In this document: one piece after another, positions 51,585 to 64,000 of the stretch
Position numbering within the stretch: position 1 is the first letter of the stretch
How the letters are laid out: each line of letters begins with the position of its first letter
Assembly: GCA_963930775.1 (NCBI GenBank)
Contig: OZ005697.1
Span: 7,214,292 to 7,278,291 of the forward strand
Source: Cliona cf. orientalis
Lineage: Eukaryota; Porifera; Demospongiae; Clionaida; Clionaidae
Reading direction: 5' to 3'
Length of the DNA stretch: 64,000 nucleotides
The notes under the pieces: model-generated
The model's database searches: none
What the model was told of the DNA's origin: nothing
Seen by the model: only the letters and a program-made list of their open reading frames with translations
Made by a program: the position numbers and the translations under genes

Positions 51585-53470
51585 TCAATATGCTGTCTTG
51601 TCTGTGTGTTCAACTGTTCCATACTGTGATAAATTAACATTTGTATTATTTGTAAGGAGTGGTTCATCGTGCTCCATCCGATGTGGCAGCGATTCACTAA
51701 AATCAGAATCTTGAGGTTGATCATGATCCTTACTGTGCCACAATTGGCAATGATCAAAGCACTTCTTGAAACACTTTTGAAATAGGCTTTGTGAATGCAT
51801 CCATTTGATCACTAAACCTGTGATGTAGAACAGTGGTAGGATACAAGCTACTGTAGATAGAATTATGGAAAATGTCACAGATGATGCCTGCACGAAGGCA
51901 GTATTGAGACACGTAACAGTTGAAAGCAACATGGTGAGGTCAAGAATGAGTAAAACATGGATTGAGTTGTATATTCCAAACTGTTTCTTAAATGGCCTAA
52001 TCATAACAATCAGCATGACAAGACACAGCAGAAATATCGGTGCAATGCTATAAAATTCCTCTCTGAACAAAGCATAGATGACAAAGAGAGTGATGCGAAT
52101 AAGCAAATACAGACCAGAAAAGAACCGACAGTCACGAGTGCCTTCAGTGCCATCTTTGTAGTAACCTTGGTAAGAGTCCAAGCAGATTCGAAGGGCCGGC
52201 CACTTGGCTGTACACCCTCGGAAGCACCTGAGGGGATGTAGTAAAGCAAAGAGAAGTGGCAAGATGTTGAACAGGAGGGTTATTACGATTGCTAGTATGG
52301 CATACGGAAGATGATCTCTGCCAAAATACTCTATTGTAGCATCATAGAATAGGACGTAACTTCCAACTTTGCCATTTGGAGTATACGCTCTTGTGTAAAC
52401 CAATAAATCAAAAGAAACGGTTAGAAATTTACCGTAAGAGAGAAGAAGGAATGTACCGAAAGCATTTAAAATGGAAGATTTGATGTTCACGGTATCAGTA
52501 ATTGACTTGAGACATTTTTTGAATGGTTTCCATATCCAAACCAGTGCCATGGCCACAAGCGTCTGTCGTAAAGATCAACCAAAATGTATGTGAACACAAT
52601 AAGAAACAAGGGATAGAGGGCTATGATGTAGTCCAAGGCAAGAACTTGAAGTGTGTTAATCTTTAGGCAGTTATCTGGCAATAGTGTACGAAAGAAATCC
52701 AGATTCCATATGCCATATATTGTAAAAAGCACAAAGATTGAGTAGTTATAGAATGGATGCATGTAGACTTTTGAGTTAAGCCATTCCATGACTATTCGAA
52801 TATTTGCTGGAGTTGAAATCATTTGAGCAACTATGATGAACGTATCGAGTTGAGGAGAGTAGGCCTTAACTCCAAAAACGAGAATAAGAAAGAAGAAAAA
52901 TGTAAGAGGAACAAAAGCAGAAATAACAAACTTAAACCAGTTATATTTTGCATTGGCACACTTTATACATTTCATGTTGTATGAGTATACCAAGGGGTAG
53001 TAACCATCTTTACACTTGCCACAAAATTTTCCATCTCGATTCCAGCGTTCTCCACACATAACCTCATTTAAGTCACTGTGATTCATTGGAACTCTGAAAT
53101 ACAACTTGAATGACATGCTTGACTTATTCAAAAAACAGTTAGTGAAACAGCTTCCAACTGTCACCCCAGTCTGGTTATCGTAGGTCATGCAATAACATCT
53201 CATGACGTATGCCCTTTGTTCTTCATTGTCGCAGCCTATAACTCCACCAAGATCATCTCCGCAGATACATTGCTGGCTTGCATTATTGTATGTGAACCAG
53301 ACTGGGCACAAAAGTCCATGATTCTGGCTCAGTGACGATGATAGATGGTCATTGTTAGACAAAGGATACTCCTTCGAACTATTGAACTGAACTGCAGTCA
53401 CCGATAAAACAAGAAATGAAAAATTCAGTATTACTAATTTTCTCATTTTGATAAAACTGATCATTGACAA
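51585..53470 (-). CDS. Cysteine-rich ectodomain, multi-span membrane protein (sponge family), one frameshift
   Basis: Single-exon gene read on the minus strand in two frames that join near 52,555. 53470 down to about 52,555 encodes an N-terminal hydrophobic signal (LVILNFSFLVLSVTAVQF) and a Cys-rich domain with repeated CxC/CxxC pairs. The motif CGKCKDGYYPLVYSYNMKC leads into membrane spans. About 52,550-51,585 encodes further spans, a second conserved motif (SYQGYYKDGTEGTRDCRFF) and a hydrophilic Cys/His tail. Alignment with the paralogue at 62,982 shows the frames should be continuous (LYDRRLWP to WIWKPF), so one base is missing or two are extra. Roughly eight to ten spans are predicted. 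The function is unknown; the layout resembles a receptor or channel-like surface protein. With one lesion only, it may be functional if the shift is a sequence error. Confidence 0.75.
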
Positions 53471-53643
53471 TGGTATCGATGTTGGTATAATATTGATATT
53501 ATAATAATAATATTATTATTAATTTAGTAGCAATCATTCACTTTTATTAAGCCTGCTATATTTTTTAGTCATCTATGGGTAATAACCACTACTGAGTCAC
53601 GTTTCTGCATTATCCTCGTACCGTTCCATAGATTCCATGGGTA

Positions 53644-53830
53644 CACTGTTAAAAAATGGGTACTCTGGTAATACCTTTAGGGGACTTCAAGGTTATGTTT
53701 ATCGTTAATACCCTAGGGGTATTACATTCAATACCCTTTGGGGTATGGCTCTAGTACCCTTGGGGTATTGGCTCAAGTACGGTGGAGTACTACTCCAAGT
53801 ACTCTAGAGGTACTGTCACAGACATGTATG
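53644..53830. repeat. Left subterminal ACCCnnnGGGGTAT boxes
   Basis: Four or more palindromic boxes lie within 190 bp of the left end: AATACCCTAGGGGTATT, AATACCCTTTGGGGTAT, GTACCCTTGGGGTATT and GTACTCTAGAGGTAC. Similar half-boxes lie at 62,190-62,374 at the right end. In plant En/Spm, subterminal repeats are binding sites for the accessory protein TNPA; that role here is inference. Confidence 0.75.
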
Positions 53831-54088
53831 CACCATGGTGGTACTACAGCAGGTATCACAGTTGACGAAGGCATAGGGTTGCTAGCATTGATCCAGTGCA
53901 TGCATGTGCAAATTGTTGTAATTACAGTTTCCACCATGTCATAAAATACGACCTCATAACTCACACAAATCATAATCATTAACAAAAAGAAAACTTCATA
54001 AACAATTAACTAAAAAAAAAAACAACAACTAAAAACCGGAAAAATGAGATATGAAGTGTTTTACAATGTGAGATGCTCTGAAAAGTGT

Positions 54089-56577
54089 TCACAGTTTATC
54101 AAGACAACTAATAAACCGAACTAAAGCTTGTGGAATAACATCTTCCTTGATGGAGTACACAAAATGCTGAATAAAAGTCAGTGGTATGTTCAGTGGCTGG
54201 GGATACTGTATATCAAATACATAATAGCATGCCATCATCCCTCCCATAGCTTTGAAAAAGCTACTTGTCGTAAGTACCACTAGCCGCTCTGTTACAACAA
54301 AGAAAGAGAGTGAATCATCGTTTGCTACTACTCCTACATAGGGATGATTGAGCTTGACTTTCTCAGCCTCTTTTTCGACATCAGAAGGATTCTACATGCA
54401 TGATAAAGAAAATTAGTGGTTAATCACATGTATACCTTCAAAACACATGCACGCACGCACACGTACACAAAGAGAGTGGAGGAAGAGAGGATACACACGT
54501 ACACACAAAGATACCAATGCTACAGAGACATAGAGAAGACAGAACAATATACAGTGGAACCCCTCTACAAGGAATTAGGACACCACCCATGGTCTCAGCG
54601 ACATAGAGACACGTACAACAGTACCCCTGAAATGAGGACATAATCAGAACACACACATAATATACAGACTTACACTCGCACAGAAAGACAACACACATTC
54701 ACACAGAGGGGAAGCAGGAAAGTCACTAAAGCAAAATCAAAGAGCGGTGCTGTGATTAAACATCAATGGGTGTTTGTGGTTAAAAACTACATTTAATGCA
54801 AAATGACATTTTGAGAGTGGCGTTGCGCCGCTCTACCGCTCTTTAATGACTTCCCTGGGGTAATAGAGAGGATACACACACATACAGAGAGAGAGGGAGA
54901 GGAGAGTGAGAGACACACATAGTGAAATAGACGGATAGTGGCACACCAACTCACATCAAAATAGTGTATCAGGGTACACTTTGCCTTGGGTGCAAGTAGA
55001 CTACAAAGGTACTTCAGTCCATACACTTGTTCCAGCTGACGCACTGCATATTATGTAAAATTAATCCTTGCAGAATACAGGTATATACACCAATGAACAC
55101 TTACATGCATTTTCATCAGGATAAAGTAGCTTCTCTTCCTCGTGTTGGTCTCTCAGTTTTTGCAAATTTGACTTGCTTGCCTCAATCTCCACCTTTCGGT
55201 TAATTTTCTCGAGGAATTTTCTCCATGTACTCTTGATTTCGTCATCCTCTGGCAAGTCACTTTTCACAACTGCTGCAAGCTCCTTTTGAAGCTAAATAGG
55301 AAAGAAATTAAATAATTATGTGTGTACAAGTGTAGTCATGTCTAATTCCACAACGTACGTAAGATGATGACATCTTCAATGGTGGGAAATTCTCTAAAAT
55401 CTCGTCAACAGTAGGTCCCTCTTTATCGATCCAATTACGCCGAATTGCCAATGTGTCCTTCATGAGAGCCTTGACACGAGTCTTGCTTGGTTTGTCTTTT
55501 GCACACTCTTCTTGAAGAGATTTGACATCGTGTTTGTACTTCTCCTCTTCTTCTTCAGTGACTTCAATATCGCTATTCTTAAACAATTTCCTCTTCTTTG
55601 ATGGCTGGTTAGGTGGAGGCTCTACATTGTTCTCCTTGTCCTCATCCCTTGTCCTTTTTTGTTTGACTGATGGAGGGGCTCTAAGATTTTTGAATTTCCT
55701 CCTGATTTGTTGCTTCCAGGAACCCTGTATGAACGTAATAGATACAGAGTTGGAGCAAGAGAGAAAGATATTTAGTTAAAATTTATGTATTATAGCAAGT
55801 ATCAAACCATAACGAAGTGTAGTTGCTCCAGTTCTCTCACTCACTTTCCCTTTCCCATACACACACAGACACCAGCGAGACACGCAACACGTGCACCCAA
55901 TTTCATACACAAGCACACTCATGCATACACACATAAATCAGAAGCTAAGCGAGTGTAACTTACATAGCCATTTCCAGTTGAGTCTTTCAGAACAGGATAT
56001 TTCTGGACCAGTTGTTGACAGACTGCTGTGTACTCCTCCCTACTGGGGTATTCGCACATCTGGTACCACGGGACACAAATTGCACTAACAATTTCACACC
56101 TCAGACCGTCGGTGATCTCCCCTTTGTCCAAGCGCTCCATAGTAGCTCTAGAAAACCGATCTGGAATCTTGAAATGGCTCAATGAGTTCTCACAACCACC
56201 AACTGGTTGTAGTGCACTGAGAACAGCCTATAAAAATTATAAAATTTTAGATATACGCAAATGCATGAAATATTGTTTTGAGTCAACACTAAACATACAT
56301 TCAACATTATTGGTCTAGCATATTAGGTATGGCTTACGTGGTGAGGTTGAGGTTGTGGTTTCAGGCTTGCAACAATTCTTTGTACAGCTTTTCTATCGCC
56401 GAACAATGAAAACAACTCTTTAAGATCGTCGTCAGAGAGGTCAACAAAAGTCTTCCCATTCACACGATTGGTTTCTATTGCAGTTATGATGTCCTCAGTA
56501 ATGTCCTCTTTGCCTTCCAACCAACTGCAGAGTTCCGTCACTGTGAACTTCTGGACCTCGTCGTAACTTTCCACCAT
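54089..56577 (-). CDS. SAM-domain protein (SAMD3-like), accessory gene of the CACTA-like element
   Basis: Six minus-strand exons in phase: 56577-56338, 56227-55964, 55724-55359, 55291-55105, 55043-54955 and 54391-54089, giving 482 residues. Residues about 8-70 form a SAM domain (FTVTELCSWLEGKEDITE through DDDLKELFSLFGDRKAVQRI). Next is a conserved block, FKIPDRFSRATMERLDKGE, then YPVLKDSTGNGY and SWKQQIRRKFKNLR, the hallmark of SAMD3-like proteins that are multicopy in fish, cnidarians and other invertebrates. A basic nuclear-type segment (NQPSKKRKLFK) precedes an acidic heptad-rich coiled coil. The C-terminal domain ends ALVRFISCLDKL. It starts 643 bp from the divergent transposase start, within the same terminal repeats. 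SAM polymerisation plus a basic region suits a DNA-binding accessory factor for transposition, but DNA binding is inferred. Confidence 0.85.
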
Positions 56578-57220
56578 GACTCCAAATTAAACTGGGCCAA
56601 CAAATACAAGTGCATGTAAAGAATAGAGTTTTCCTAGAAGCACAACTAATGCTATCTATCAGAAAGAGTAAGAAAGTTATAGTAAGTTTGTTGCCTGTGG
56701 ATTGACACCTTCGTTTAGTATTAAAATTATGTTATTATTATTGTGGTCAACTTACATCCACTCCTTCTTGGTTGTTCAGTGAGGGACGCGAGTACGCACA
56801 AGACTTCAGCCAACGCCAGAAAGAGAGAGAGCAGGGATAGTACAGCGTCTTCACATAGACAGAGATCGAGGATCAGCTTTCTCACGTACACTTCAATGTG
56901 TCAGAAAATCACGTGCACAGCTACTACGCGTACGCGTGCATGCGCGTGTACGTACGTACGTGCAACGTATATCGCTTACGCGCGCGCATGCTCGAATGCT
57001 GAGCAACTAGACACAAGGGGTTAAATTTGAAATTGTTATTTGAGTGGACTCTGCTGCTCTGACTGGACTCGACTGCTTCCCCACGCCGCCACACTACCAG
57101 TAAGCAAGCTTTTAGCAAAATTATAGCGTCTATTAAATATTATTATGCTATAATAAATTATACATCATTGTGATATTAAACACATGGAAACTCATAGGTT
57201 TGTACATATCTATAGGTGTG
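56578..57220. promoter_or_regulatory. Divergent promoter region of the transposon's two genes
   Basis: 643 bp between the outward-facing start codons, including a CpG- and ACGT-rich stretch (CGTACGTACGTACG-like words near 56,930-56,990). An AG just before 57214 suggests the transposase start codon may lie in a second exon, with a non-coding first exon in this interval. Confidence 0.5.
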
Positions 57221-60200
57221 ATGTCTTTGATTTGTCCTTTGTGTGGTGATGTTACTGTGTCTAAGCATTCACAGTTGATGACACACATCAGGCTCTTACA
57301 CGCTGATGATCCAAATTTCATGATTCAGTGCAATCGTCAAGGATGCAAGAGAACGTTTCGGAAATTTACCGTTTACAGAAACCACGTTTATGCTTTTCAT
57401 GGCACAGCACTTGATGAAACCACCGTAACACCACATTCATGTGGAGAAACAAGTGGAAATCCTCCAGTATCAGGTATTATAACAACCATTGATTGTTTCT
57501 CACCTGGTAAGGCCAAAATAAGGACAATAATGTTCAAAACAGGCATATCTGGCATAAATAATATGATACAACCCCTATACTCGTGTACATTCCGATGCAC
57601 GATGCAAGTTGTGTCTAATGAGTGCTATAGTTGTTCTCAATCTGTTATTCAGGTGATTCTTTTGACCAAGATGTGAGTGAGATGCGTGTGTCTATCACAG
57701 AAGAGGATCTAAAGGTGGCAGCAGCTAAATGGATTTTGAAAAACCGAGAAGGCCATCGGATTCCTAATTCTGTTATGGAATCCATTGTATCTGGAGCTAA
57801 GTTTCTGTATGAAACAGCCTTGTCAGAAATTCAGCGACAAATAGTGGACGAGATGAAGGAAGCTAATATTACTCCCGACACCATTACTTCTGTATCACGT
57901 GTGTTTGATGGTGAAACGCAATACACGAATGTATTCAGGGGATTAGAAACAACTTACCGCCAAAATTCATTCATCAAAGACCACTTCAGATTTGTTGTAT
58001 GTCTCTAATTCAATGAAGTGATACGTATAGTGTTCTCCCTAGCATACATGTTCCTAAGACATGTTGGCCCAACAAACCTTCAGTACAGAGTTTCCTTTGA
58101 TGTGGGAATAGGGATAGTCCATGTGCTTTGTTGTGGTCAGAGGCTCCACCCAAACTATTCCCTCCCGTCATGTCTCGAGTTTAGCTTGGGGAGAACAATG
58201 CATAATATACAATGTACCACTCAATAATAATAATTATCATTGTCTATCCGTCTTCCTTCCATGTAGGAACCTGTTCAAATACTCCTTGGTACCCGTTCCC
58301 AACCCGGCAAATTTCTCAAGGATGGTAGTGTTAAACAAACCAGGGACACCATGATCTATATTCCCATTCTTAAAACCATCCAAAACCTTCTCCAGAATGA
58401 AACAGTGCTGTCAGAGGTATACTATGCAGTTTGTCATTTGTGTCTATGGGCTTCTTGTATGCATAAGTGCAATGTACATGTACATGCATGTACTTTACAT
58501 ATATGTGTGTACACACATGTACACGTGCGATAACAACCATGTGTCCACACATTCGTTATATAGATTGAGAGGGGGCATCGTACGAGAGATCCTGACGTGT
58601 TGAAGGATTTCTGTGATGGCCATGTTTTGAACAACCACAGACTTTTCTCAGTACACAGGAATGGATTGCAGATTCTATTCTACTTCGATGACATAGAGGT
58701 GGTTAATAATCTGGGCTCACACAAAAAAGTCCATAAATTGGGTAAGTTGTAGTATAGAGCACTGACAACATTAAACTAAGTATTCATATGCACAGGTGTG
58801 TTTTACTTCACACTGGGAAATCTCAGACCCAAATACCGTTCACGATATTCAAGCATCTATCTGTTGGCAATTTGCAAGAGAAAGCTAATTACTTTGTATT
58901 CAATGTCTACTGTTCTTCAACCAATCGTTGAAGATATCAAGATTCTTGTAAGTTACACATGTACATGTATGTATTATTTAATTTGTGTACTTTCGTGTGT
59001 ATTAGGAAAAAGGCCATGTCTTTGAGGTTAGAGGTGAAACGAAGACCTACTATGGCACAATAGCTGTTGTTTCAGCTGACAACCCAGCTAGTAATGGTCT
59101 TGGTGGGTTCAAAGAAAGCGTTTCTGCCACCAGATATTGTCGACAGTGTATGGTAGACAGTCAGACTGCCCAGCAGGAGGTATGATCACTTGATACACAG
59201 TAGTGCTTTGATTTTCATTGATCCATTTTTTGTGTGTACATGTAGTTTGATGAAGATTCTCTTATTTTGCGTACCCGAGAGCAGCACCTTCGTAACTGTG
59301 ACACCCTTGAAGCTGACACCATTTCACGTGCAGCAACCTCAACACAGCTGGGAATCAACTACCGCTCAATCTTGTTTGAGCTGCAACACTTCGAAGTGGA
59401 CGTGTTGGTTCCGGACGTGATGCACGATATACTGGAAGGGACGCTTCAGTTTGAAGCCAAGCTTGTACTTCAGCATATTGTGAGGGAGAGGTATGTTTCC
59501 TATTCCATATTTGCAGGTGCTCTTGCTCGACTAGAGCTAGGGTACATGGAGGCTGACAATAAACCTTCTGAGATCTCTTCAGCTACTCTCTCATCATCGG
59601 ATAAGACTCTGGGACAAAAAGGTTGGGAATTCATTTCATTGTGTGCATGTATGTGCCATGTTTAATCATACGTACACCCTTATCTTTTTAATATAGCTGC
59701 TCAAATGTGGTTGTTGGGAAGAGTGATCCCATACCTGATTGGAGAAAATATTCCAGAAGGAGATATCAACTGGAAGAATTACTTACAACTTTTGGAGATT
59801 GTAGATCTGCTGATGGCCCCAGAGATATCTGAGGACGAAGTTGGTGAACTAACTCTACTTATCTCTCAACATCACACCCTGTTCTCTCACCTATACACGA
59901 GTTCTAATGTGCTACCTAAGCACCATTTTATGGTGCATATGCCCCGTCTTATCCTCAAGTAAGCGTGTGTGTGTGTGTATTCGTGTTGTGTAAGTGTATA
60001 ATACGTTTGTGTGTGTACGTGTATATATACTGTAGAACCCCAGTTATCCGACCTGCTTGGGACCAAACCTAAATGCCAGATATGTGAATCGACCATTACA
60101 TACATGTACTTCTAGTATATGTGATGCAATCGGAAAGTGTGCGTTAATTAGAAATTTAGAGGTACATGTATAGAGGCACAGATAAGAGGTTCCACTGTAC

Positions 60201-61315
60201 ATGTATGTGTGTACATGTACATGTACAATAATAATAATAATATATTATGTCATGTGTGTTTGTGTACATGTGTATGTGTATTGTTGGTAGTTGCTTAGCA
60301 ACCAAAGTTTTTATAGGCAATTTGCCGGCTATGGGAAGGGGTTGGGTCATCATAAAGTAGGCCAATGATGTCAACTACCAACAAAATAGTTATCTGCCAG
60401 TAATTGGGGTGCATTCGACCATGCATCTCATGCACCCCAATTACTGGCAGATAACTATTATGTGTTTGTGTGGTGTATGTGTGTACATGTGTGCATGTGC
60501 TTGTGTTTATGTGTGGTATGTGTGTAAGTACTAGTGCTTTTGGACTATTACACGTATGTACATGTAAATGCACAGGTATGGTCCACTTGTCCGTCAATGG
60601 ACGATGCGATATGAAGCCAAGCACAACCATCTGAAGAAGCTTGCTCAAAATATTGGCAACTTTATCAATATCGCATTGACCTTGGCAACAAGACACCAGT
60701 ACTGGCAGTGCTACAAGTGGCAAGAAGGAGATTTGATGGACGATGAGCCAGAAGTTGGGCCAGGTATTATATTAAACATTTTTTATACCGTGTACAAGAT
60801 TCATCTTCATGCATCTGCATCACTGTTTAAGGCACTGTGTTTTATCCTTTCAAATATGCAGGTGATTTGGTTGCCACTAGGGATAGGCCACTGGAGCTAG
60901 CCACTATTGATACCTGCTACAAGTCAGTTTTTCTTTGCACTATGTGAACCTGGTAATAATGATTGTTTTGTTCGGTTATAGGACCAAATGGGCTATAAAA
61001 GATGGTATTCTGTACAAGGTTCCCTGTGTGCTTACTGTTGAGATAGACGATGACTACCCACAGTTTGGAAGAGTAGAGAGTATATACATTGCAGATAGTA
61101 ACTCTGTGTATTTTCACCTGAGAATGATGAACACAGTGGACTTCAACATTCACCGGCACTTCTACATAGTTGAACTTTCATCTAACTATAAAACAGTGCG
61201 TTTTACTGATTTGTACTATGTCTTCCCCCTACACCTGAGAAGATCTGTAGTCAACAATTCCAGTTGTTTATGTATCATTCCGAAACATCACATTCTGCAC
61301 TCATTACAACAATAA
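57221..61315 (+). CDS. C2H2 zinc-finger TNP2-like (CACTA/EnSpm) transposase
   Basis: Eleven exons in phase: 57221-57473, 57653-57996, 58267-58416, 58564-58741, 58796-58947, 59006-59179, 59246-59621, 59697-59958, 60576-60763, 60862-60922 and 60982-61315, giving 823 residues without a stop. Two N-terminal C2H2 fingers: C5, C8, H22, H27 and C37, C42, H55, H60. The core follows TNP2 order: LQILFYFDDIEVVNNLGS with Asp291, a HKLGVFYFTLGNLRPKYRS strand region, VVSADNPA with Asp384, a CRQC knuckle at 404-407, LVPDVMHDILEGTL, and WTMRYEAKHNHLKK with Glu643. That gives a plausible D-D-E triad equivalent to DG, DxPA and PFERYMGxLK in plant TNP2. A C-terminal domain (DDYPQFGRVESIYI) is shared by related animal proteins. 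It would cut and join the CACTG ends. A domesticated host gene is the alternative, but the matching terminal repeats argue against it. Confidence 0.78.
58027..58198. mobile_element. MITE with AGTGTTCTCCCTAGC ends inside a transposase intron
   Basis: Bounded by AGTGTTCTCCCTAGCATACA and the complementary GCTTGGGGAGAACA. Same family as 44631-44783. It sits wholly within the intron between 57996 and 58267, so it need not disable the gene. Confidence 0.7.
60033..60198. mobile_element. Short pogo-like element in a transposase intron
   Basis: Left CTGTAGAACCCCAGTTATCC and right, in complement, CAGTGGAACCTCTTATCTGT bound about 166 bp. The CAGTNGAACCCC-ATTATC ends are of Tc1/pogo type. A related left end (CAGTGGAACCCCTCTAC) occurs at 54553. 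Confidence 0.5.
60385..60459. repeat. Perfect 29-bp hairpin with 17-nt loop
   Basis: 60385-60413 and 60431-60459 are exact reverse complements (core tatctgccagtaattggggt) with a 17-nt loop. It lies in the intron between 59958 and 60576 of the transposase gene. The size would fit a small-RNA hairpin, but perfect pairing more often marks a recent inverted duplication. Confidence 0.85.
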
Positions 61316-61398
61316 TAATTATTTTTAATAACATACAATGTAAGCTGAATTTATAATAATAAATTATTGGAGTAATGATTGTGAATTAGCCTTATTGT

Positions 61399-62150
61399 AA
61401 CCAGACCTGGTGATCATGTACTGTTTCAGGTGTAGAATCAGGAGAACAAGTCCATTTTCATGGGCGATCAAGTGTTCTTGTCGATGAGGGGTGACGTACA
61501 TGGGTCATGACACTTACTGAATTCGGTACAATTTCAAAACGTGTTGTGGTCTCACCAGCTCATACTTTTGTTTCTGTCAACCAGACCTGGTTATCATGTA
61601 CTGTTTCAGGTGTAGAATCAGGAGAACAAGTCCATTTTCATGGGCGATCAAGTGTTCTTGTCGATGAGGGGTGACGTACATGGGTCACGACACTTACTGA
61701 ATTCGGTACAATTTCAAAATGTGTTGTGGTCTCACCAGCTCATACTTTTGTTTCTGTCAACCAGACCTGGTGATCATGTACTGTTTCAGGTGTAGAATCA
61801 GGATAACAAGTCCATTTTCATGGGTGATCAAGTGTTCTTGTCGATGAGGGGTGACGTACATGGGTCACGACACTTACTGAATTCGGTACAATTTCAAAAC
61901 GTGTTGTGGTCTCACCAGCTCATACTTTTGTTTCTGTCAACCAGACCTGGTTATCATGTACTGTTTCAGGTGTAGAATCAGGAGAACAAGTCCATTTTCA
62001 TGGGCGATCAAGTGTTCTTGTCGATGAGGGGTGACGTACATGGGTCACGACACTTACTGAATTCGGTACAATTTCAAAACGTGTTGTGGTCTCACCAGCT
62101 CATACTTTTGTTTCTGTCAACCAGACCTGGTTATCATGTACTGTTTCAGG
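61399..62150 (+). repeat. 180-bp tandem satellite, four copies plus a partial
   Basis: Units begin AACCAGACCTGGTGATCATG at 61399, 61579, 61759 and 61939, with a partial at 62119. Copies differ by only a few bases. It lies between the transposase stop codon and the right terminal repeat. Confidence 0.95.
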
Positions 62151-62374
62151 TATATAGAATCAGCTAGGATATTTAGTGCTTGTATGAGCCATATTATGGG
62201 TATTGCTAGAGTACTCTAGGGGTTTTAAAAGTGCTAATTGGAGATCATTAGAACATTCAGGGTATTGCAGCATGCTTAGGGTACCATGGTAATACCCCCA
62301 CGATACTGTCACAATACCCCTACTGTTTTGTCCATAGGTTGGGGTATTGACACAGTACCCCAATTTTAACAGTG

Positions 62375-62981
62375 TAGCTACAAGACTATAATCATGAATA
62401 GAAACAGAAGCACTATTATTACTACAAATATTCAATTCTTACTGCTTGGCTACTACTGAATAATAACAAGAATGATTTTCAATATGGAAGTTGAAAAGTG
62501 CATGACACTGTTACAGTACTGCATGAGCTGGCATGCAGAAAAATTAATAATACACGGATAGGATCATTGCTACTGCCGTACAGTGTGTATATAAGTAATC
62601 ACTCTATAATTAGGGGGCATACAATAAGTTCCCCAGGAAGATATTTACCCTAATTATTATTATTGTGCTTGTTTGTATAATACACGAGGCTATAAAATAA
62701 TGTAAACATTGAAACTGGCTACCTATAATAGAGGTTTATGCAACATACTTCTTCCCAAAAATTATACCATGCATGTTCGCTCAATCTGATAGCTACTACA
62801 GCTACTCAATTATATTTATTTCATTGCCCGAGTTTGTTCGAGAGCAGCAACTTTTTCGTTCAGTAGTTCTGGAGGTGTGGCGACCAGCGACTGCATGATC
62901 GAGCAAATACGATAGTCTGGAGTTGCTTGCTATAATTATTATATGCTTTAGTTTCTAGAGTTACAATTGTAACCATTAGCT
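62375..62981. other. Flank of transposon and 5' region of decayed multi-span gene
   Basis: AT-rich, no gene seen. Together with 53471-53643 this is the original space between two head-to-head multi-span paralogues before the transposon inserted. Confidence 0.5.
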
Positions 62982-64000
62982 ATGTGGATTCTGATACAAA
63001 AGTTCTTTTATCTACAGTACCTATTTGGAATCATACTAGTGTCTTCTAATGTTTATGTTCTTCATGGTATTGATGATTCTAACATTAATCATGGTTCTGG
63101 CGAGAATTACTCACTTAGCACTGTTTCCTTAGAATGCATCACAGATAGCTCCTGTCCAACGTGGAACTACTGTAGCTCAGGGCGTTGCCATAGATCGAGT
63201 CTACCACATTTTTCCGAGAACCATTCTGTGTGTAATTGGTTCAACAGGAAGGGGCTGCTCTGTGGTGAGTGTGAGGATGGCTTTAGTCCTTTCGTTCTCT
63301 CCTATCATTTCAGCTTTGTTAACTGTACAGATGGTTACAAAAACTGGTGGAAGTTTTCCGTGATTGCGTTTGCTCCCGTGACTTGCTTTGTAGTAATCTT
63401 CCAAATCAATGTGACATCTTCTCATCTTCACGGAGTGGTCTGGTTTAGCCAGACTATCTCCATGCCACCTCTAATGCGGTGGTTTGTGATGGTTGAGCTC
63501 GCAAAAGATTATCCACAAGTGTTAACAGTAGTTCGAGCTTTTGTATACCACTGTATAGCATGTGGAACTTAGATTTATTTCGTTCTGTTATTCCAGACAC
63601 TTGTCTTAATGTGAGTCCTTTACAAGCCTTAGCGTTAGAATATGTGGTGGCATTTTATCCATTGCTTCTTTCTTACTGTATGATAGTGCTCTATGAGGCT
63701 AAGGTCACACCAATACGTATCATTTGGACTCCGTTTCATAAATTTTGTACTCTTTTTCGTAAGACATGGGATGTCCGCACATCGCTTATTGATTCATTTG
63801 CTTCTATTTTTTGACATTCTTTTCAATCAATTGGTATTCTCTTCGCATTTATGTCGACTCCTTTCAAGGTTGCTACAAAGATGGAACTGAACCTGGTACA
63901 TTTGACTGTCGATGGTTTTCGGCACTAATGCTGCTTACCAGGTCTTTCTATTTCGTTATCTATGGCTTAACTCTGTCAATGATGAGTTTTGCTTATGTAC
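62982..64000 (+). pseudogene. Cysteine-rich multi-span membrane protein, decayed paralogue (runs off window)
   Basis: Related to 51585-53470. It starts MWILIQKFFYLQYLFGIILV and carries the Cys motif CGECEDGFSPFVLSYHFSF, but has a much shorter ectodomain. One frameshift occurs near 63,545: the frame ends CIACGT, and the family sequence continues in another frame as MWNLDLFRSVIPDTCLN. A second break at about 63,810 coincides with loss of about 85 codons present in the paralogue, after which the family motif resumes (DSFQGCYKDGTEPGTFDCRW). The 3' end lies beyond the window. The gene is very probably non-functional. Confidence 0.75.

Follow-up and report, generated by a model that had tools for sequence, protein, structure and literature searches.

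Results

The window analysed here is a stretch of 64,000 nucleotides from Cliona cf. orientalis (contig OZ005697.1; G000:C9:7214292-7278291), taken from a genome of 216.8 Mb in 149 contigs that was searched as a whole. At 53644-62374 it contains a two-gene DNA transposon of 8731 bp. A sequence-only reading of this DNA had proposed matched inverted ends, a flanking TA and two intact divergent genes, and all of these were borne out. The terminal inverted repeat CACTGTTAAAA lies at 53644..53654 on the plus strand, where it is identical to the end of a second copy (L009, see below), and at 62364..62374 on the minus strand. Exact matches to it in the window are found just at these two element ends, and five matches are obtained when one mismatch is allowed. 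Including the flanking TA, the inverted arms comprise 34 nt with 82% complementarity. The TA at 53642..53643 and at 62375..62376 is a target-site duplication, since two element-free paralogous sites carry a single TA.

The two genes have 17 exons in total and GT-AG introns; the models, predicted from DNA, are the best-scoring among several in-phase alternatives. Gene 1 (54089..56577, minus strand) is predicted to encode a SAM-like protein of 482 aa in six exons (56577-56338, 56227-55964, 55724-55359, 55291-55105, 55043-54955 and 54391-54089). Gene 2 (57221..61315, plus strand) is predicted to encode a transposase of 823 aa in 11 exons (57221-57473, 57653-57996, 58267-58416, 58564-58741, 58796-58947, 59006-59179, 59246-59621, 59697-59958, 60576-60763, 60862-60922 and 60982-61315). 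The interval between the two gene models (56578..57220) is presumably a shared promoter region. The N-terminus of the transposase appears C2H2-like by eye, and the residues D291, D384, C404/C407, H619/H623 and E643 are invariant among four transposase relatives. The motifs C404xxC407 and H619xxxH623, that is C(2)C and H(3)H, lie between the second D and the E, and these acidic residues would be the catalytic D-D-E set, judging from conservation. In the SAM-like protein, conservation is found in the N-terminal region, in a middle part around YPSREEYTAVCQQLVQKYPVLKD...SWKQQIRRKFKN followed by a basic stretch, and in the C-terminal region.

Searches with the first 237 bp of the element found five places in the genome, the window included, those with the last 225 bp found three, and the two sets meet in one further full copy, L009 (C15:2319191-2328117, 8927 bp). 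L009 is 97% identical to the window element over ungapped columns; both frames and every splice site are preserved in it, and it has a TA duplication of its own. When the two flanks of the window copy, joined with one TA, were used as an empty-site query, they matched three paralogous sites that lack the element, all on the contig of the window, with 97, 96 and 88% identity. Two of these read GGG-TA-GCTAC, with exactly one TA, and the third has four extra bases just downstream. The element is complete and real, and its ends, duplications and empty sites show that it has been mobile. The genome contains three Wnt (PF00110) loci, as compared with none in 14 control genomes, and is thus that of an animal, as had been supposed.

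Genome searches with both proteins revealed related elements, which we group into families A (the window copy and L009), B (C1, C2 and C3), C (C4 and C5), D (C6 and C11) and E (C1 and C7). Segments homologous to both proteins, divergently arranged, are present in each family, the SAM-like proteins of the other families being down to 23-33% identical to that of the window and the family E transposase being 35-38% identical to the window transposase. The terminal sequences are CACTGTTAAAA-like in families A-D and CACTGCAAAAA in family E, with CACTG..CAGTG throughout. All 11 insertions for which both ends were read, from five families, have perfect 2-bp duplications (8 TA, 2 TG, 1 AA); insertions for which just one end was read (L049, L008/L012, L010/L003, L011/L004 and the left end in L040) and a family D copy on C1 (25456053) stand outside this count. 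In family B, the base-by-base comparison covered the end segments (0.86-2.3 kb); these are 99.2-100% identical among three copies lying in unrelated flanks, which points to recent movement.

The idea that SAM-like and transposase genes travel together was supported within this genome. We compared 45 SAM-family loci with 58 transposase loci, counts that are lower bounds as only the best-scoring candidates were taken. A transposase locus lies 14 kb or less from 28 of the 45 SAM loci, and all 28 pairs are head-to-head; uniform random placement gave a mean of 0.36 pairs and a maximum of 4 in 2000 trials. As random placement ignores transposon clustering, matches to Transposase_21 in the same genome are the better control: only 4 of the 77 have a SAM locus within 14 kb, all of them from family E or its near relatives. 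Clustering of transposons thus does not account for the pairing, which is a property of this lineage. Eight of the 17 unpaired SAM loci were inspected, and a transposase was recognised on the expected side of four of them, namely C6 (from L052), C11 (from its similarity to L052), C1:29723135 (from L066) and C1:20282859 (from L065, just an N-terminal fragment), which brings the paired loci to 32 of 45. Many other Transposase_21 loci are present in the genome, with open frames of up to 984 aa and no listed SAM gene nearby.

The comparison of the two family A copies shows both genes to be under purifying selection. Noncoding positions differ at 137 of 3745 between the window copy and L009. From this rate, 41.8 nonsynonymous changes would be predicted in the SAM gene, where 10 were observed, and 70.3 in the transposase gene, where we counted 15 plus one multiply changed codon.

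GGGTAT/ATACCC boxes had been read as palindromic boxes at both ends. They are indeed found there, five in the left subterminal region (53644..53893, the first 250 bp) and five in the right (62125..62374, the last 250 bp), with one in between, as compared with a mean of 0.25 and a maximum of 4 in 2000 simple base shuffles of both ends. They are thus repeated subterminal boxes and not one palindrome per end. As 7-mers, AATACCC occurs 9 times in the terminal 220 bp of each end taken together versus once in the interior in family A, and likewise 9 versus 1 in family B; AACACCC takes this place in families C (8 versus 1) and D (5 versus 1).

Several further features were noted in and around the element. 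An insertion of 180 bp with hairpin ends (60279..60458) is nested in intron 8 of gene 2 and is absent there in L009, which carries a similar insertion of 188 bp in intron 5 of gene 1 (L009 1358-1545). Similar pieces are also present in L025 and L010, and this hairpin-ended insertion of about 180 bp is probably an active miniature element. Near the right end, 61399..62151 holds 4.2 tandem copies, 98% alike, of a 180-bp unit; this region is 186 bp longer in L009, with a different copy number, and in L012 about one copy of the unit is joined to the same right end. The element lies within a local array of duplicated loci, others being at G000:C9:7281130, 7286647 and 7317931. The flanking open frames at 52487-53512 (minus strand) and 62973-63572 (plus strand) look alike, and neither has a Pfam family above cut-off. 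L010 and L011 contain decayed left ends from an A-like family, together with broken pieces of the C-terminal part of the SAM gene; since they also share the sequence outside the CACTG (CCACCTTGTTAA), they either arose by duplication of one older insertion or are located in a common repeat. In the family E element L053 192-8622, an open frame of 244 aa downstream of the transposase (L053:7325-8056, plus strand) matches the PARP catalytic domain (PF00644; 36.9 bits, cut-off 26.7), and the C7 copy has the segment around this frame with 99.9% identity. The frame may be a cargo gene.

Discussion

Our results support the notion that the element is a cut-and-paste transposon which carries its own transposase together with a dedicated SAM-like co-factor, and which belongs to the TNP2 side of the CACTA-Mirage-Chapaev-Transib (CMCT) group; we give this reading as a whole a probability of roughly 0.7. 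The D-D-E transposase encoded on the plus strand would act on the CACTG ends, its catalytic role being deduced from its sequence, and insertion takes place into a 2-bp target, usually TA. The SAM-like protein encoded on the minus strand would serve as the dedicated co-factor of this transposase. Most probably, the subterminal boxes (AATACCC in families A and B, AACACCC in families C and D) are bound by its basic middle part while its SAM-like domain multimerises, so that both ends would be brought together for the transposase. Such an end-pairing role would be much like the one ascribed to TNPA in maize En/Spm.

Several observations weigh against this interpretation. The profile of TNP2/Transposase_21 (PF02992) was expected to recognise the 823-aa protein, but it gave no match at E<=1, nor did any Pfam transposase family match, and the family B transposase gave none at E<=5; the expected similarity is seen in the related family E, whose transposase scores 29.7 bits, over the cut-off of 28.6. 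The SAM domain itself had been claimed for gene 1, and Pfam SAM matches do fall at the N-terminus of the window protein, yet with E-values of 0.015 and 0.11 these family A matches are under the curated cut-offs, as are those for family C, and family B has none. Family E has a SAM gene but no evident subterminal box. The strength of selection depends on the method, the ratio of nonsynonymous to synonymous substitution rates (dN/dS) being 0.21 for the transposase and 0.26 for the SAM gene by NG86, and 0.34 and 0.49 by YN00. The pairing is also incomplete. No listed SAM locus lies near 30 of the 58 transposase-query loci, six of which are also Transposase_21 matches, and no transposase was found on the expected side of four inspected SAM loci, namely L010, L011 and, within 6 kb each, L064 (C4:4385379-4386824) and L067 (C1:13736649-13739518). 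The latter two are remnants or candidates for domesticated genes. Finally, the relatedness of the two proteins across the five families gave a Spearman correlation of 0.55, reached by 26 of 120 permutations, in a comparison where the family D transposase pieces are fragmentary; co-evolution of the two proteins by this distance comparison, not significant with five families, was dropped.

Other explanations of the same locus have to be considered. The many introns give both genes a host-like structure, and one could think of two ordinary host genes that lie by chance between similar sequences. This is virtually excluded: the empty sites and the second full copy led us to reject it, and the 11 duplications out of 11 and the five families speak against it as well. 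The SAM gene might also have been captured as a passenger and contribute nothing to transposition. Capture does occur in these elements, as indicated by the PARP-domain frame of family E, another likely cargo gene. The SAM gene, however, stands beside the transposase across families whose SAM-like proteins share as little as 23-33% identity with that of the window, and we consider a passenger very improbable because all 28 pairs are head-to-head and the gene is under purifying selection. Selection maintains the SAM-like protein, and its gene and that of the transposase stand head-to-head in the families read. This protein could still serve the same transposon in some way other than end pairing, for instance by counteracting silencing, by regulating the shared promoter or by guiding the choice of target. 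Helpers of such a sort are described in the wider group, with TET/JBP genes in fungal elements (PMC12730594), and TNPA is reported to act also on a methylated promoter (PMC1636069). The SAM gene of family E, in an element without evident boxes, would agree with such a role, whereas the boxes at both ends of families A-D, nearly absent from the interior as 7-mers, are suggestive of DNA binding at the ends. We regard these other roles as unlikely, though clearly less so than a passenger, and retain the transposase with its end-binding co-factor as the preferred reading.

With regard to classification, the description of the CMCT group gives target duplications of 2-5 bp and the motifs C(2)C and H(3-4)H as its rule (PMC12730594). 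Plant CACTA elements are described with a 3-bp target-site duplication and strict termini CACTA..TAGTG (PMC4158355), and EnSpm/CACTA in broad use with termini CAC..GTG (PMC12730594). The termini CACTG..CAGTG fit the broad definition and not the strict one. We place the element in the CMCT group, nearest to the TNP2 (Transposase_21) side, because its 2-bp duplication and its C(2)C/H(3-4)H motif fit the group and because family E matches Transposase_21. Another locus, L044, reaches 22.7 bits with this profile, under the cut-off of 28.6, and comparison with solved structures matched nothing useful. The window element is not a canonical EnSpm/CACTA element, because its duplications are of 2 bp and not of 3 bp. 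The original assignment to a complete CACTA/EnSpm type thus holds for a complete, CACTA-related two-gene element and has to be given up for canonical CACTA.

Transposition by two proteins has precedents in plant CACTA elements and in transposons of the RAG1/RAG2 type. The present case is an animal lineage of this wide group in which the transposase is paired with a SAM-like protein; at least five such families are present, with exact ends, empty sites and little-diverged copies. If the partner is needed for transposition, this lineage would offer a clean animal test of how an accessory protein assembles transposon ends. Searches of viral contigs (transposase and SAM alignments) and of genome contigs (transposase alignment), collections without animal genomes, gave no relatives. 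In one open-access library, which excludes Repbase Reports, we found no paper combining a SAM domain with EnSpm/CACTA or a DNA transposase, and none, by title or start of abstract, on a transposon origin of SAMD3. A SAM-like partner in this transposase lineage thus looks new, while an animal element with two genes is already known from the wider group (PMC4411706).

Our results suggest that a group of animal genes which look ordinary belongs to the machinery of transposons, and any gene of the SAM-like family should be called a host gene only after a search for CACTG ends and for a transposase head-to-head with it. Vertebrate SAMD3 and fish SAMD3-like genes have an N-terminal SAM domain, with multicopy 'SAMD3-like' annotations, and vertebrate SAMD3 is a gene of immune cells. 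A fish gene called 'Samd3', of putative kinship with the present family, has already been considered as a candidate for a trait (PMC8945855). It is tempting, if rather doubtful, to suppose that the SAM-like protein is of ancient origin and indispensable as the second subunit of a transposase lineage of metazoans; the multicopy 'SAMD3-like' genes of fish, corals and sponges would then be transposon genes, and vertebrate SAMD3 a domesticated descendant, much as RAG2 is next to RAG1. A gene of immune cells would have a transposon origin if vertebrate SAMD3 belongs to this kinship. The name SAMD3-like for our protein is presumptive.

Among known systems, Spm likewise has a repeated subterminal motif. 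Maize En/Spm, a CACTA element with TNPD and TNPA, resembles the present element in its CAC..GTG ends and in encoding a catalytic and a second protein (PMC1636069, PMC4158355), and a link is given by family E, the relative of the window element that matches TNP2/Transposase_21. It differs in that its ends are CACTA and not CACTG and its duplication is of 3 bp and not 2 bp; moreover, En/Spm has one alternatively spliced unit, in contrast to the two separate divergent genes found here, and our second protein is SAM-like. The animal TRC elements are closer in host: SmTRC1 is described as having a CACTA-related transposase with Transposase_21 and a 2-bp target duplication supported by empty sites, but the available account presents one transposase open reading frame with splice variants and mentions no SAM-type second gene (PMC1636069). 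ESTA, an EnSpm-like element compared here by its description, shares the TA duplication and the motif set of the group but is fungal and carries TET/JBP (PMC12730594). TransibSU, with RAG1-like and RAG2-like genes, belongs to the Transib/RAG1 lineage and has a RAG2-like partner instead of a SAM-like one; according to its description, it nevertheless resembles the present element in that it comes from an animal, falls into the same wide group and has two genes, a transposase being accompanied by a dedicated partner (PMC4411706).

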